A stretch of 50,779 nt of DNA from Clostridiales bacterium (GTDB lineage Bacteria > Bacillota > Clostridia > Christensenellales > Aristaeellaceae), in NCBI GenBank assembly GCA_015056305.1, contig SVGO01000006.1, forward strand, positions 1 through 50,779, read 5' to 3'. This document shows, piece by piece, positions 23,799 to 30,201 of this stretch (position 1 is the stretch's first letter; every line of letters begins with the position of its first letter). The translations under genes and the position numbers were made by a program. Under the pieces are notes generated by a model. It made no database searches. It worked only from the letters and a program-made list of their open reading frames with translations, and was not told the origin of the DNA.

Positions 23799-25577
23799 AT
23801 GAAAAGACTCGTTTCTCTGGTTCTTTGCCTGTGCATGATGGCGACCATGTTCGTCGCCCCGGCGTATGCCGCCGGCTTCACCGCGGGCACCTATACCGCC
23901 GCTGCGAAGGGCATGAACGGCGACGTCACCGTTGAGGTGACCTTCGCCGAGGATGCGATTGCGGGCGTGAAGGTCGTTTCCCACAGCGAGACCCCGGGCC
24001 TGTCCGATCCGGCGATCGCGGGCATTCCGGCGGCGATCGTGGATGCCCAGTCTCTGGCTGTGGATACCGTGACCGGCGCGACCATCACCAGCAAGGCCAT
24101 CCTGGCCGCCGTGGAAGATGCGGCTGCGCAGGCCGGCGCGGACGTTGCCGCGCTGAAGGCTGTCGCCGCTGCGGATGATGCTGCCGAGAAGGCCGAATCC
24201 GAGCAGACCGCTGACGTGGTCGTGGTCGGCGCGGGCATCGCGGGCCTGAGCGCTGCGCTGGCCGCGAAGAACGCCGGCGCGGACGTCATCCTCATCGACA
24301 AGATGGCGGCCATCGGCGGCACCACGCTGCTGGCGGGCGGCATCCTGGTGAGCGTGGACTCCGAGCTCTTTGCCCAGAATCGTCTGGAGAGCGACAGCCT
24401 CGAGGCGATGATGGCCTACTGGAAGGACCGTCAGGCCAAGAGCGGCGTGGAGAGCGGCTACCCGGATTGGGCGCGCCTGGAGAGCGTGCTCGCCGAAACC
24501 GGCAAGACCGTCGATTGGCTCGTTGCCAACGACGTGCAGTTTGATACCGTGCCGTATGCGGCTTCCTCCGCCTATCCGATGGCGCTGGCCAACGGCGGCG
24601 GCGCGGGCCTGATCGCGATGCTGCAGGCGTCCGTGGAGAGCCGCGGCGTGAAGCTGATCACCGAGTGCAAGGCGACCGAGCTGGTCACCAACGACGCCGG
24701 CGCGGTTGTGGGCGTGAAGGCCGAGACCGCCGATGAGGTCATCACCTTCAAGGCGGACTCCGTCGTGCTGGCGACCGGCGGCATCTCCCAGAATGAGGAA
24801 CTCGTCGCCAAGTACAGCCCGAAGCTCCATCGCGCGGGCCTGGTGCCCACCAGCGCCGTGAGCCATACCGGCGACGGCTTCCTGATGGCGCTGGAGGTTG
24901 GCGCCGGCACGTTTGACGTGTTCGCCACCCCGCTGTTCAACATCACCTTCGATCCGGCGCTGAGCGACAGCACCGGCCTGACCATCTACAGCCAGCTGGG
25001 TGTGAACGCCAACGGCGTGCGCTTTGGCAACGAGGCCGCCGCCGCCGGCTGGGACACCATGGACCACACCGCCTCCGACATGATCCAGGACGCCAACGCG
25101 CCCTTCTGGTACATCTATGACACTGCGGACGAAGCCATCACCGCCGTGCTCGAGGCCGGCGTGGCCGAGGGCGTCGTGGTCAAGGGCGAGACCATCGCCG
25201 ATCTGGCGCGCGAGATGCACGTCTACACCGCCGCGCTCGAGCAGACCTATGCGGATTACAGCGCCATGGTCGCCGCGGGCGAGGATACTGCGTTCGGCAA
25301 GCCGGCCGCGTTCCTCATGCCGCTTGACAAGGCGCCGTACTACGCGGTGAAGGTCTATCCGACGACGTTCGGCTCTGCCGGCGGCGTGACCACCACCGAA
25401 GAGGGCCGCGTAACCCGTCAGGACGGCACCGTGATCGAGGGCCTGTATGCTGCGGGCGAGATGAGCAACCGTTACTTCTACAACGAGAACTACATCCTCG
25501 CCGCTTCCCTGGGCCTGTACAGCACGATGGGCCGCCGCGCAGGCACCGCCGCTGCGCAGGACGCTGCCGCGAAGTAA
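23799..25577 (+). CDS. Secreted FMN-binding domain + FAD-binding_2 flavoprotein (fumarate/urocanate reductase-like)
   Basis: Signal peptide; FMN_bind with DTVTGATITS flavinylation motif; FAD site VVVVGAGIAGLSAALAAKNAGADVILIDK; C-terminal GLYAAGEMSNRYFYNENYILAASLGLYSTMGRRAG. Confidence 0.9.
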   Translation: MKRLVSLVLCLCMMATMFVAPAYAAGFTAGTYTAAAKGMNGDVTVEVTFAEDAIAGVKVVSHSETPGLSDPAIAGIPAAIVDAQSLAVDTVTGATITSKAILAAVEDAAAQAGADVAALKAVAAADDAAEKAESEQTADVVVVGAGIAGLSAALAAKNAGADVILIDKMAAIGGTTLLAGGILVSVDSELFAQNRLESDSLEAMMAYWKDRQAKSGVESGYPDWARLESVLAETGKTVDWLVANDVQFDTVPYAASSAYPMALANGGGAGLIAMLQASVESRGVKLITECKATELVTNDAGAVVGVKAETADEVITFKADSVVLATGGISQNEELVAKYSPKLHRAGLVPTSAVSHTGDGFLMALEVGAGTFDVFATPLFNITFDPALSDSTGLTIYSQLGVNANGVRFGNEAAAAGWDTMDHTASDMIQDANAPFWYIYDTADEAITAVLEAGVAEGVVVKGETIADLAREMHVYTAALEQTYADYSAMVAAGEDTAFGKPAAFLMPLDKAPYYAVKVYPTTFGSAGGVTTTEEGRVTRQDGTVIEGLYAAGEMSNRYFYNENYILAASLGLYSTMGRRAGTAAAQDAAAK

Positions 25578-25631: not shown

Positions 25632-27080
25632 TTATGTCAGCAGATGCTCGCTGAATACGAGCGTGAAGCAGGTTCCCTCGCCCGGCCTGCTGCTGCAGGT
25701 CATCTCGATATCATGGCGCAGGGCGATCTCACGGGCAATCGGCAGGCCCAGGCCCGTGCCGCCGCGGTTGACGCCGGAGTGCTTGTGGAAATAGCGGTCA
25801 AAAATATGCTCAAGCGCTTCCTCATCGATGCCGCATCCATGATCGATGACGGACACCTCGCAGGCGCCATGCTTTCTCCTGACGGCAATCTGCACGGCCC
25901 CGCCTTCCCCGGAAAACTTGATCGCGTTGTCCAGCAGGATGATCATCAGCTGGCGCAGTCTGCCGTAATCGCCCAGAACAGCAAACGGCGCTGCCTCATC
26001 CAGCCGGATCTCGATCCGCTTTTCCTCTGCCTTCTGGCGCATGAAGCGAACCGTATCCGCAAGTACATCCATGAGATTGATGATCTCCATCTCGATTTTG
26101 AACTGCGTATTCTGCAGGCGGGTCAGCTCCAGCAGATCGTTCACCAGCCGCTGCAGATGATGGGCGTCTGCATGCAGCTGATCATAGTACTGCCGCCTCT
26201 GCGCCGGATCTTCGATGATGCCCTCGCGCAGCAGCTCGATGGACCCCCTGAGCACGGAGATCGGCGTGCGCAGCTCATGCGAGATATCGGAGAAGAAGTC
26301 CTGGCGCAGCTGCTCAAAATGGCTGCGTTCCTTTTCTGCCTCGTCCAGCTTCTTAGCCAGCATGTCGATCTGCGCGGCAAGCACGCCGATTTCATCGTTT
26401 TGCACGACACGGGTTTTCACGCTGTAATCGCCGCGCGCCATCTGCGTCGCCGCGTCCATCATCCGATGCAGCGGCGTCACAAAGCGGCGCGAAAGAAAGA
26501 AGGACGCAGCGATGGCGATCACCAGGGCAATGGCCAGACAGGCGGTGAGCAGATAGAAGGCGTCCTGCAGCGTATGGCTGATATTGTTGATATTCGCGCT
26601 GAGCACAAGCGCAAGCTGAACCCCGCCCGCTTCATCGAGAACGGGCACGCAGACGATCATGTCGCCCGCATGAAAAGGATTGAGCGAAAAACCGGCGCTG
26701 CTCATTTCGCCCGTCTCAAATACGCACATTGCGAGCGGCAGCACCTGCTGATCCAGCGGCTTTTCGGGCAGCTGCATCTCGCCGAGAACGACATGATTTC
26801 CCTGCGCGTCCAGCAGATACAGGTCGCTCATCGTCGCGTCGCCGATGAAACGCATATACGACTTGAATCCGCCGCCGCTGCAGCTGCCTTCATTGTAATT
26901 GGCTGTGAAATGCGCAATGGTATCCGCGATCGAAACCGCATGGGCGCACAGATCCCGCCGGGTGACGTCTGCCGTATGCCGGGCAAACATCGCAGAAAAC
27001 AGCACGCCCACCGTCAGCGCAAAGAGAATCAGCGCCAGCGCAAAATACTGCGTCAGCCTGCGCGCAATCTTATTCTTCAT
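25632..27080 (-). CDS. Sensor histidine kinase (HAMP, HisKA, HATPase_c)
   Basis: FSDISHELRTPISVLRGSIELLREG, LIILLDNAIKFSGEGG, VIDHGCGIDEEALEHIFDRYF, GTGLGLPIAREI; two TM segments flanking a sensor domain. Confidence 0.93.
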   Translation of the reverse strand: MKNKIARRLTQYFALALILFALTVGVLFSAMFARHTADVTRRDLCAHAVSIADTIAHFTANYNEGSCSGGGFKSYMRFIGDATMSDLYLLDAQGNHVVLGEMQLPEKPLDQQVLPLAMCVFETGEMSSAGFSLNPFHAGDMIVCVPVLDEAGGVQLALVLSANINNISHTLQDAFYLLTACLAIALVIAIAASFFLSRRFVTPLHRMMDAATQMARGDYSVKTRVVQNDEIGVLAAQIDMLAKKLDEAEKERSHFEQLRQDFFSDISHELRTPISVLRGSIELLREGIIEDPAQRRQYYDQLHADAHHLQRLVNDLLELTRLQNTQFKIEMEIINLMDVLADTVRFMRQKAEEKRIEIRLDEAAPFAVLGDYGRLRQLMIILLDNAIKFSGEGGAVQIAVRRKHGACEVSVIDHGCGIDEEALEHIFDRYFHKHSGVNRGGTGLGLPIAREIALRHDIEMTCSSRPGEGTCFTLVFSEHLLT

Positions 27081-27771
27081 CCTCAATGACCTCGAATTTA
27101 TATCCCATGCCCCAGATGGTCCTGATCTGCCAGTGCGGATGGTCATAGGCGTCTAGCTTCACGCGCAGGCGCTTGACATGGCTGTCCACCGTCCGGCTGT
27201 CGCCGTAGTAATCGTATCCCCACAGAAGGCTCAGCAGCATTTCCCGGGAAAAGAGCTTGCCGCAGCTCTCGGCCAGCGTATAGAGGATCTCCAGCTCCTT
27301 CTTCGTGAGCGAAACAGGATGCCCGTCAATCGTCACCAGCGCATCGGCCATATGGATGGACAGATTATCAAAGACCAGCGGCGCATTGGCCGGGCTTTGC
27401 CCCGGCGCGCGCTCGATCCGCCTAAGGATCGCGCGGATGCGGGCCATCACCTCTTCGCCGGAAAACGGCTTGACGATGTAATCATCCGCGCCGATATCCA
27501 GCCCCATGACCCGCTCAAAATCCTCGCCGCGCGCGGTGATCATGATGATGGGGACATTGGATGTGCGCCTGATTTCCCTGCACAGGGCAAAGCCGTCCAT
27601 ATACGGCATCATCACGTCCAGCAGGATCACGGCAAACGTCTCCTTGTGAAAAAACTCCAGCGCCTGCCTGCCGTCATACGCTACGACGGGCTCAAAGCCA
27701 TGCCTTTTCACAAACTCGCTGATGATCTTCGTGATCTGCACATTGTCGTCCGCAATCAGAATTCTTTCCAT
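27070..27771 (-). CDS. OmpR/PhoB-family response regulator
   Basis: ERILIADDNVQITKIISEF...VILLDVMMPYMDGFALCREIR...GADDYIVKPFSGEEVMARIRAILRR; winged helix C-terminus. Confidence 0.95.
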   Translation of the reverse strand: MERILIADDNVQITKIISEFVKRHGFEPVVAYDGRQALEFFHKETFAVILLDVMMPYMDGFALCREIRRTSNVPIIMITARGEDFERVMGLDIGADDYIVKPFSGEEVMARIRAILRRIERAPGQSPANAPLVFDNLSIHMADALVTIDGHPVSLTKKELEILYTLAESCGKLFSREMLLSLLWGYDYYGDSRTVDSHVKRLRVKLDAYDHPHWQIRTIWGMGYKFEVIEDEE

Positions 27772-27968
27772 ATCCGTCTCCCATACATAAGGATGTTTTG
27801 ATTATAACATAGCCGTTTAAAAAGCCATACAAAAGGGCGGAAAAAGACAAGAAAAAGTCACAATTACTTGTTATTCTCTTAACAAAGGTACGCCCAGCAG
27901 GCGTTTTTCCTGTTTTAGGGCTTCCTGATGACAAAAGTCTGAACCGAAATGTATGGAGGAGATTGACA

Positions 27969-28475
27969 ATGATGGAAAACACTACCCGCCGCGACTTCCT
28001 CAGGAACACCCTGAAGCTCGGCGCCGGCATGGCCGCGCTGTCCGCGCTGTCCCCGGTGATGGCCATTGCTGAAGAAGAGGAGAAGGTTCCCTTCGCCTGG
28101 AAGCCGAACGCTGCTCCCTGCAAGCTGATCGAAGAGCTCGAGCCGGCCGCTGAGGGCGTGCGCAGCTTCAAGTTCAACACCGACGGCCGCTCCTGCTCCA
28201 AGAGCGTGACCTTTGATATCGTCGGCAAGGAAGAGTACGTCAAGAACATCAAGTACGAAGGCGGCTGCAACGGCGGCACCCAGGGCATCGGCGCGATGTG
28301 CGAAGGCCGTCCGGCTTCCGAAGTGATGCCGATCATGATGGGCATCGTCTGCCGCAACAAGGCTTCCGGTTCTTCCTGCGCGCATCAGCTCGCCCTGGGC
28401 CTGCAGCAGGCTCTGATGATCGTTCGCGGCACTCCCTGCCCGGGCTGCGAAGCCGGCACCTGCGCGAACGCGTAA
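27969..28475 (+). CDS. Tat-exported TSCPD-domain (TIGR03905-like) protein
   Basis: Tat signal TTRRDFLRNTLKLGAGMAALSALSPVMA; TSCPD-like SCSKSVTFDIVGKEEYVKNIKYEGGCNGGTQGIGAMCEGRPASEVMPIMMGIVCRNKASGSSCAHQLALGL. Confidence 0.8.
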   Translation: MMENTTRRDFLRNTLKLGAGMAALSALSPVMAIAEEEEKVPFAWKPNAAPCKLIEELEPAAEGVRSFKFNTDGRSCSKSVTFDIVGKEEYVKNIKYEGGCNGGTQGIGAMCEGRPASEVMPIMMGIVCRNKASGSSCAHQLALGLQQALMIVRGTPCPGCEAGTCANA

Positions 28476-28538
28476 GTAATTCCCCTGATTGCCATATAAC
28501 CGTAAGCAAATCAATACGAAATAAGGAGATTTACTGAT

Positions 28539-29252
28539 ATGTCTAAGAAGATTATGAGCATCGTGCTGGCGCTGGTGCTGGTTCTGTTCTCCGCTGTGGC
28601 TTTTGCGGATACCTTCGAGGGTATCGGCGAGGGCTTCAAGCCCCTGCAGGTGAAGGTTGACGTCACCGACGGCAAGATCACCGCCATCGACATGATCGTC
28701 AACGACGAGACCCCGGAAATCGGCGGCGTCGCCATCGAGACCCTGACCAAGCAGATCATCGAAGGCCAGACCCTGGCTGTGGATACCATTTCCCAGGCGA
28801 CCTACACCTCCGTCGGCTTCACCGCCGCCGTGGCTGACGCCGTGACCAAGGCCGGTCTGGATCCGGCTGCCATGGGCTGGGAAGACAAGTCCGTCGTCAT
28901 CCTGCCGGCCTGCATGCGCATCAAGGAAAAGCTCCTGAAGAACAACTTCCACTACTTCAACTACACCACCGCCAATGTCTGCTCCGAGTACATCGCCTTT
29001 GCGATCTATGAGCCGGACATGACCGTTTGGGACGTGCGCGTTTATGGCGGCTGCCACGGCACTGCCGATGCGTTCGGCGCGCTGTGCAAGGGTCTGACCG
29101 TTGACGAGTGCATCGAGCGTCTGGGCGGCATCCAGTGCTCCGGCAGCGCCACCGGCGTGGACTCCTGCCCGGATCAGGTTGCTCAGGCTCTGGCCGCTGC
29201 CAAGGGCATGATCACCGGCACCCTGTGCGACGGCTGCACTGTCGTTCACTAA
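28539..29252 (+). CDS. Secreted FMN_bind-like + TSCPD-like fusion protein
   Basis: Sec signal MSKKIMSIVLALVLVLFSAVAFA; FMN_bind-like GEGFKPLQVKVDVTDGKITAIDMIVNDETPEIGGVAIETL...VDTISQATYTS; TSCPD-like VWDVRVYGGCHGTADAFGALCKGLTVDECIERLGGIQCSGSATGVDSCPDQVAQAL. Confidence 0.8.
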   Translation: MSKKIMSIVLALVLVLFSAVAFADTFEGIGEGFKPLQVKVDVTDGKITAIDMIVNDETPEIGGVAIETLTKQIIEGQTLAVDTISQATYTSVGFTAAVADAVTKAGLDPAAMGWEDKSVVILPACMRIKEKLLKNNFHYFNYTTANVCSEYIAFAIYEPDMTVWDVRVYGGCHGTADAFGALCKGLTVDECIERLGGIQCSGSATGVDSCPDQVAQALAAAKGMITGTLCDGCTVVH

Positions 29253-29421: not shown

Positions 29422-30201
29422 TTACATCCACTTGATCGCATTGTAGCAGCAGATCAGGAAAATCACGACGAGCAGACCGGAAAACAGCTTGTCCGTCGTT
29501 TCGGCAGACAGCTTTCTGTGCAGCTTCGCGGAGACAAAGCCGCCGATTGCGCCCGCGGCGACCATCGCCAGCAGGACAGGCACCTCAAACGCAGGCACGC
29601 TGCCCGTCGCAAGGCTTACGATCAGGCTCATGACCTGGCTCATCAGGATGATCAGGATGGAATTGACCGCCGCCTGCTTGGTGCCCATGGAGAAGAAATA
29701 ATACAGCACCGCCAGATTCATCGGGCCGCCGCCGATGCCCAGGAACGACGAGCACATGCCCAGCAGCAGGCCGATCACCACGGCGACAGACGCGCTGTGC
29801 ACGTCCTTGGTGCGGATGCGCGCCTTGTTGCGGACGTAGGCCAGCGTGCCCAGCACCATCAGGCCCAGCACGATCGCCTGAATCATGCCCACCAGCTGAT
29901 CCGCGCCCACAGCCTGCTTGATCATTTCAAACAGGCGCTTGCCCAGCACGCCGCCCACAGCCGCGCCCAGGCCCAGCGGAATGCTGCGCTTTGCATCCAG
30001 CTCCTTGGTCTTGCGGTTCTTGTATACCGAGATCAGCGACATGGCCAGCACGGTCAGTCCCGAAAGGAACGACACCGTCGATACGCTCATGATGCCCGTT
30101 GCATCCAGCAGCGGCTTGATCACCACGCCGCCGCCAATGCCGCAGATACCGCCGATCGTGCTCGCGCAAAGGCACACAACAAACACAAACAGAATCATCA
30201 T
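29422..30201 (-). CDS. Sulfite exporter TauE/SafE (TSUP) family permease
   Basis: GGICGIGGGVVIKPLLDATGIMSVSTVSFLSGLTVLAMSLIS; FLGIGGGPMNLAVLYYFFSMGTKQAAVNSILIIL. Confidence 0.9.
   Translation of the reverse strand: MMILFVFVVCLCASTIGGICGIGGGVVIKPLLDATGIMSVSTVSFLSGLTVLAMSLISVYKNRKTKELDAKRSIPLGLGAAVGGVLGKRLFEMIKQAVGADQLVGMIQAIVLGLMVLGTLAYVRNKARIRTKDVHSASVAVVIGLLLGMCSSFLGIGGGPMNLAVLYYFFSMGTKQAAVNSILIILMSQVMSLIVSLATGSVPAFEVPVLLAMVAAGAIGGFVSAKLHRKLSAETTDKLFSGLLVVIFLICCYNAIKWM

Follow-up and report, generated by a model that had tools for sequence, protein, structure and literature searches.

Two adjacent genes in the window, the whole stretch of 50,779 nucleotides analyzed here, encode a pair of exported TSCPD-domain proteins: a 168-residue protein with a twin-arginine (Tat) signal (27969-28475, + strand) and a 237-residue fusion with a Sec signal, in which an FMN_bind domain is joined to a TSCPD domain (28539-29252, + strand). 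At a probability of about one half, we read the pair as a regulated extracytoplasmic electron-transfer module combining Fe-S and covalently bound FMN, of which we infer the cofactors, partners and substrate. This reading draws on the domains and signals of the two proteins, the retention of the pair in ten copies, the grouping of exported TSCPD domains in one clade, the TatA/TatC, ApbE and Rnf proteins of the genome, a link to IscU and the metal-ligand logic of the conserved cysteines. Against it, four-cysteine sites can bind zinc, and the FMN motif of the source protein has Gln in place of Gly. The preliminary description had proposed an extracytoplasmic redox or metal/thiol module; a redox or metal module is still the best reading, but the flavin reductase and TSUP permease that had been noted beside the pair probably do not belong to it. 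New relative to that description are the recurrence and probable common origin of the pair, a suggested second four-cysteine set in each protein and a likely relation to the IscU/SufU fold.

Domains and export signals of the pair

Both open reading frames are intact, with a plausible ribosome-binding site for each. The Pfam TSCPD profile (PF12637, cut-off 22.8 bits) matches the Tat protein at 49.7 bits (E 4.8e-13; 28179-28415, + strand) and the fusion at 63 bits (E 3.3e-17; 28962-29201, + strand), bearing out with significant scores the TSCPD domains proposed earlier for both proteins. They had also been called TIGR03905-type, which stands insofar as both match this NCBIfam profile, at 51 and 64.6 bits; the scores fall below its curated cut-off of 67.7, however, so these are TSCPD-domain proteins rather than TIGR03905 equivalogs. 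By Pfam, neither the 168-residue nor the 237-residue protein has the catalytic reductase domain of class II ribonucleotide reductases.

The Tat protein opens with a twin-arginine signal sequence (TRRDFLRN..., 27969-28073, + strand), recognized in the preliminary description by its RRDFLRN stretch. The twin arginines are invariant in all ten homologues, and the TIGR01409 profile scores the signal at 16.2 or 18.5 bits, depending on the search used, around its cut-off of 16.7. The Tat system exports proteins in a folded state, often loaded with cofactor. Both a signal and a genomic Tat translocase are present, with tatA and tatC lying beside a gene for a ferredoxin-like (4Fe-4S) Tat-signal protein. 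Besides this protein, the few other Tat-signal matches are a molybdopterin oxidoreductase and a C_GCAxxG_C_C protein, and all three are of redox type; the last, another exported Cys-rich protein, is encoded elsewhere in the source genome (L123, 1492-2112).

The Sec signal of the fusion was assigned by eye, and its FMN_bind domain (28638-28844, + strand), likewise anticipated, matches PF04205 at 48.2 bits against a cut-off of 22 (E 1.8e-12). AlphaFold models of the Tat protein and the fusion have mean pLDDT values of 85.5 and 85.9, respectively, and in a search of the PDB the fusion model matches domain 1 of flavinylated CbFMN4 (E 2.2e-05, TM 0.87 over the target). The flavinylation motif is DxxxGAT (PMC10339131). 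At the predicted flavinylation site, Thr88, the source fusion reads DTISQAT, with Asp, Ala and Thr as in the motif and Gln replacing Gly; most relatives in the alignment of 11 homologues have GAT where it has QAT. The genome encodes three ApbE proteins and, beside RnfC and RnfD, an RnfG-like protein with four FMN_bind domains, a multi-flavin Rnf subunit (L121, 2430-3827); together these provide a plausible flavinylation and electron route. Next to an ApbE gene, the same genome also encodes an exported protein that has FMN_bind at its C terminus and no Pfam match in its N-terminal part (L052, 13-1134). With known flavinylated FMN_bind proteins (CbFMN4, RnfG and the systems of PMC8238504) the fusion shares the FMN_bind fold, the Thr site and a genomic ApbE, but it differs from them in being joined to TSCPD and paired with a Tat-exported TSCPD protein; the flavinylation survey itself (PMC8238504) makes no mention of TSCPD.

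Distribution and probable common origin

The pair occurs in ten copies, in the window and in L034, L035, L036, L037 (two tandem pairs), L047, L117, L119 and L048, and in all of them the Tat-TSCPD gene precedes the FMN_bind-TSCPD gene. A further contig, L118, begins within the second gene. Its carriers belong to a single family of Clostridia, in which at least four genera have the pair and a fifth has a contig-truncated copy. When each species was represented by a single genome, scanning returned four close loci, all from metagenome-assembled Clostridia of ruminant guts. Of 250 genomes searched in the source's family, 8 have full-length or nearly full-length fusions, so the arrangement is not confined to the source genome. 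One further genome has a truncated TSCPD remnant lacking the FMN_bind part (L120, 8629-8850), which suggests decay of the module there.

Across about 390 genomes of the class, each of the remaining matches listed covers essentially the FMN_bind part or the TSCPD part, not both, and a Tat-protein profile run against 399 genomes of the phylum found, at E-values up to 1e-17, the source genome alone. TSCPD itself is present in 94 of 150 sampled genomes of the phylum, where the matches listed lie mostly in frames of 80-110 residues or of at least 700. Outside the family, the pair was absent from the class and phylum genomes sampled, though rare occurrences elsewhere may exist.

A tree was built from 52 TSCPD domains on 88 columns, and many of its inner forks are unresolved. 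A branch with support of 99/95 separates all 21 exported domains from the others. Within the tree the Tat lineage is likewise set apart by a branch, as is the FMN fusion lineage, and each of the two is divided into the same two subclades. The single exported clade and the matching subclades suggest a probable single origin of the pair followed by joint inheritance; in the simplest history, export would have evolved once and a single duplication would have followed, with the two genes passed on together. Stand-alone cytosolic TSCPD proteins (TIGR03905, PF12637) share the domain and its four core cysteines with the pair (profile probability 99.7, with the match on the TSCPD domain of the Tat protein), but they lack a signal, the second cysteine set and FMN_bind, and lie on the opposite side of the supported branch. 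One such stand-alone, signal-less TSCPD protein is encoded in the source genome (2.6 Mb, 159 contigs).

Two cysteine sets in each protein

The Cys-rich blocks described earlier hold up in the alignments of ten Tat homologues and eleven fusion homologues, in which conservation of the cysteine motifs is far above chance. In the Tat protein, Cys51, Cys100, Cys128, Cys137, Cys157, Cys160 and Cys165 are invariant (10/10), and Cys76 is kept in eight sequences, whereas the remaining two, which belong to the other subclade, have His. In the fusion, Cys148, Cys172, Cys200 and Cys210 are invariant (11/11); Cys125, Cys184, Cys224 and Cys227 are kept in 8 of 11 and all absent from the three sequences of the other subclade, a block loss that counts as a single event in the tree and is suggestive only. 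The four core cysteines of TSCPD, including those of GGCxG and SCxxQ, are therefore complete in every fusion and in eight of the ten Tat proteins, with His for the first Cys in the other two. This pattern suggests that each protein has a core four-ligand site and a second four-cysteine site, and the exchange of Cys76 for His fits metal ligation better than a disulfide. In the Tat protein, we propose that the latter consists of Cys51 together with Cys157, Cys160 and Cys165 of the C-terminal tail CPGCEAGTC (28437-28463, + strand).

Such sites could instead belong to a metal-binding or metal-stress module, with Zn, Cu or another soft metal held outside the cytoplasm, the two-component system acting as a metal or envelope-stress switch and the FMN domain forming part of a metal reductase. 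The four-cysteine sites themselves would suit this, as would the exchange of Cys76 for His. A parallel is found in class II (B12-dependent) ribonucleotide reductases, whose Cys-rich tail binds zinc and relays electrons by thiols (PMC5704485); in the sequences analyzed here this tail follows the TSCPD domain. These enzymes resemble the pair in having TSCPD followed by a CxxC-rich tail, but they are large cytosolic reductases, whereas the exported pair has no reductase domain. Given that the FMN_bind fusion points to electron transfer, and given the gene neighborhood described below, we consider a metal module unlikely.

The thiol relay of the reductase tail (PMC5704485) and the CxxC tails of the pair also bring into view a thiol-disulfide or persulfide relay, in which redox-active cysteines driven by the FMN domain would serve extracytoplasmic thiol redox or sulfur transfer. 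One locus has neighbors to match: in L037 (4233-11972), a Crp-type regulator comes after the two tandem pairs, each of which has a regulator, and next to it are genes for a thioredoxin, a rhodanese and a pyridine nucleotide-disulfide oxidoreductase that includes a rhodanese domain. That neighborhood was seen in L037 only, however, the Cys76 exchange preserves a ligand and not a disulfide, and such relays do not require Tat export, which together make this explanation rather improbable.

Probable relation of TSCPD to the IscU/SufU fold

We consider it likely that TSCPD is related to the IscU/SufU fold. The evidence new to this analysis is the alignment of cytosolic TSCPD with the IscU/SufU scaffold at the three cluster cysteines. 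Compared by hhalign, a cytosolic TSCPD profile of 31 sequences and a SufU/NifU-N profile of 10 align over 77 columns at 84.7% probability (score 36.8, E 6.7e-06), against 0.4 in a control with a response regulator, and three TSCPD cysteines are placed on the three cluster cysteines; the maximum score in 200 column shuffles was 22.4. In the PDB search with the Tat-protein model, IscU/ISCU accounts for eight of the first nine fold matches (best E 0.025, probability 0.87, TM 0.29-0.39), E-values of 0.025 and worse being sub-significant taken alone, and the fusion model matches SufU and IscU weakly, after CbFMN4. Eight of the 31 cytosolic TSCPD members also weakly touch Lip_prot_lig_C (best E 0.02), which we take to belong to the SufE/NifU fold class, the same as IscU/SufU.

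The relation was not recovered from every profile. The Tat, fusion and ribonucleotide-reductase TSCPD profiles did not match IscU on their own, the last giving no signal (0.3%), and a combined TSCPD profile scored 20.4, barely above its shuffles at 19.3. Pfam NifU_N has no match in the pair at E-values up to 1 and none in cytosolic TSCPD up to 10, and a sequence search of solved structures returned no TSCPD structure.

Although TSCPD shares the order of the three cluster cysteines, and probably the predicted fold, with IscU/SufU/NifU-N scaffolds, the pair has an additional Cys, is exported, lacks a NifU_N match and does not conserve the cluster-releasing Asp. At the position of this residue, two places C-terminal to the first Cys (CGD in IscU), TSCPD has CSR, CSK, CSE, CST and others. 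Replacement of the IscU aspartate stabilizes the cluster (PMC2644719). A fourth Cys and a non-conserved Asp would be expected of a protein that keeps its cluster rather than donates it.

A two-component system and a conserved promoter element adjoin the pair

Among the neighbors grouped with the pair in the preliminary description, the two-component system recurs. An OmpR/PhoB-type response regulator (27070-27771, - strand; Pfam Response_reg and Trans_reg_C) is divergent from the pair, and relatives 68-78% identical to it adjoin the pair elsewhere. It is accompanied by a sensor histidine kinase, identified by Pfam (25632-27080, - strand), whose single conserved extracytoplasmic Cys (EGSCxGGGF) is kept in five aligned pair-linked kinases and missing in a paralogue. 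The pairs flanked by a divergent regulator and kinase are those of the window, L034, L035, L047 and L117, together with the first of the two in L037. Beside the second L037 pair there is a regulator without a kinase, and L036, L048 and L119 have no adjacent two-component system. A second related system, in L035 (284-3464), adjoins another weak FMN_bind protein.

The promoter region holds a conserved element, GTCACAATTACTTGTTATTCTCTTAACAA (27857-27885, + strand), kept in seven of eight aligned promoters and degenerate in the eighth (L047). Allowing one mismatch, a genome-wide search finds its TTGTTA-N5-TTAACAA part nowhere else, and we propose that the element comprises a regulator site, for the response regulator, plus a promoter. 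The element, read as TTGTTATTCTCTTAACAA, is similar to what we take to be the operator of Rex, an NADH sensor; because it has a single genomic occurrence, fewer than the matches of a reversed control pattern, a Rex regulon is unlikely.

The adjacency and the kinase's extracytoplasmic Cys could be accommodated by a metal module, yet the conserved neighbors of the pair include neither a metal transporter nor a metallochaperone, and kinase and regulator fall below the cut-off of every metal family in NCBIfam. They would also suit a co-receptor, with the pair as sensory input to the kinase, signaling the external redox state rather than carrying electrons in bulk: in one subclade the genes are divergent with a common promoter region, and the kinase Cys goes with the pair and not with the paralogue. 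In L048 and L119, of the other subclade, however, no two-component system adjoins the pair. The proteins would therefore be expected to have some role independent of the kinase, and we regard a purely sensory role as very improbable.

The genes 3' of the pair vary between loci. The flavin reductase (23799-25577) and TSUP permease (29422-30201) of the window are not beside the pair in relatives and are probably unrelated neighbors. The former is an exported reductase with FMN_bind and FAD_binding_2 domains, of flavocytochrome c type. The HGxNRLG stretch that we associate with fumarate reductase is apparently missing from it, and its substrate is probably a different one. A membrane anchor, a membrane electron donor and a terminal reductase are likewise missing from the conserved neighbors of the pair, which speaks against the electron-transfer reading.

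A proposed electron-transfer module

In the electron-transfer reading, TSCPD would be a four-cysteine relative of the IscU/SufU scaffold fold, a relation with moderate support, that retains its metal cluster instead of donating it. The cluster in the core site would probably be of the Fe-S type. The Tat protein would fold and be loaded in the cytoplasm before leaving through Tat, and the fusion would leave through Sec and receive FMN on Thr88 from an exported ApbE, bringing flavin and cluster together on one polypeptide. As presumed products of one ancestral duplication, the two proteins would relay electrons from a membrane donor, for example the Rnf complex of the source genome, the fusion taking them first and the Tat protein handing them to some acceptor. 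The adjacent two-component system would induce the pair through the conserved promoter element.

Among 5.39 million open papers, TSCPD occurs as a domain name in a single one, as a listed annotation, TIGR03905 does not occur, and no function for TSCPD was found. The exported pair appears to be undescribed, although an earlier remark on the fold or the fusion may exist outside that literature. Tentatively, and with some doubt, we suggest that it represents a new class of extracytoplasmic Fe-S flavoprotein in ruminant-gut Clostridia, in which an IscU-type fold would serve as a permanent carrier, Tat-exported, with a partner fused to a flavinylated domain and its own two-component system.

The exported TSCPD-flavin fusion links the widespread TSCPD family to electron transfer. 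The relation to IscU offers a concrete hypothesis, open to experiment, on the cofactor of all its members, among them the TSCPD region of class II ribonucleotide reductases. If the electron-transfer reading is true, the pair would be a further type of carrier in the flavin-based electron transfer that gut bacteria carry out beyond the cytoplasm.
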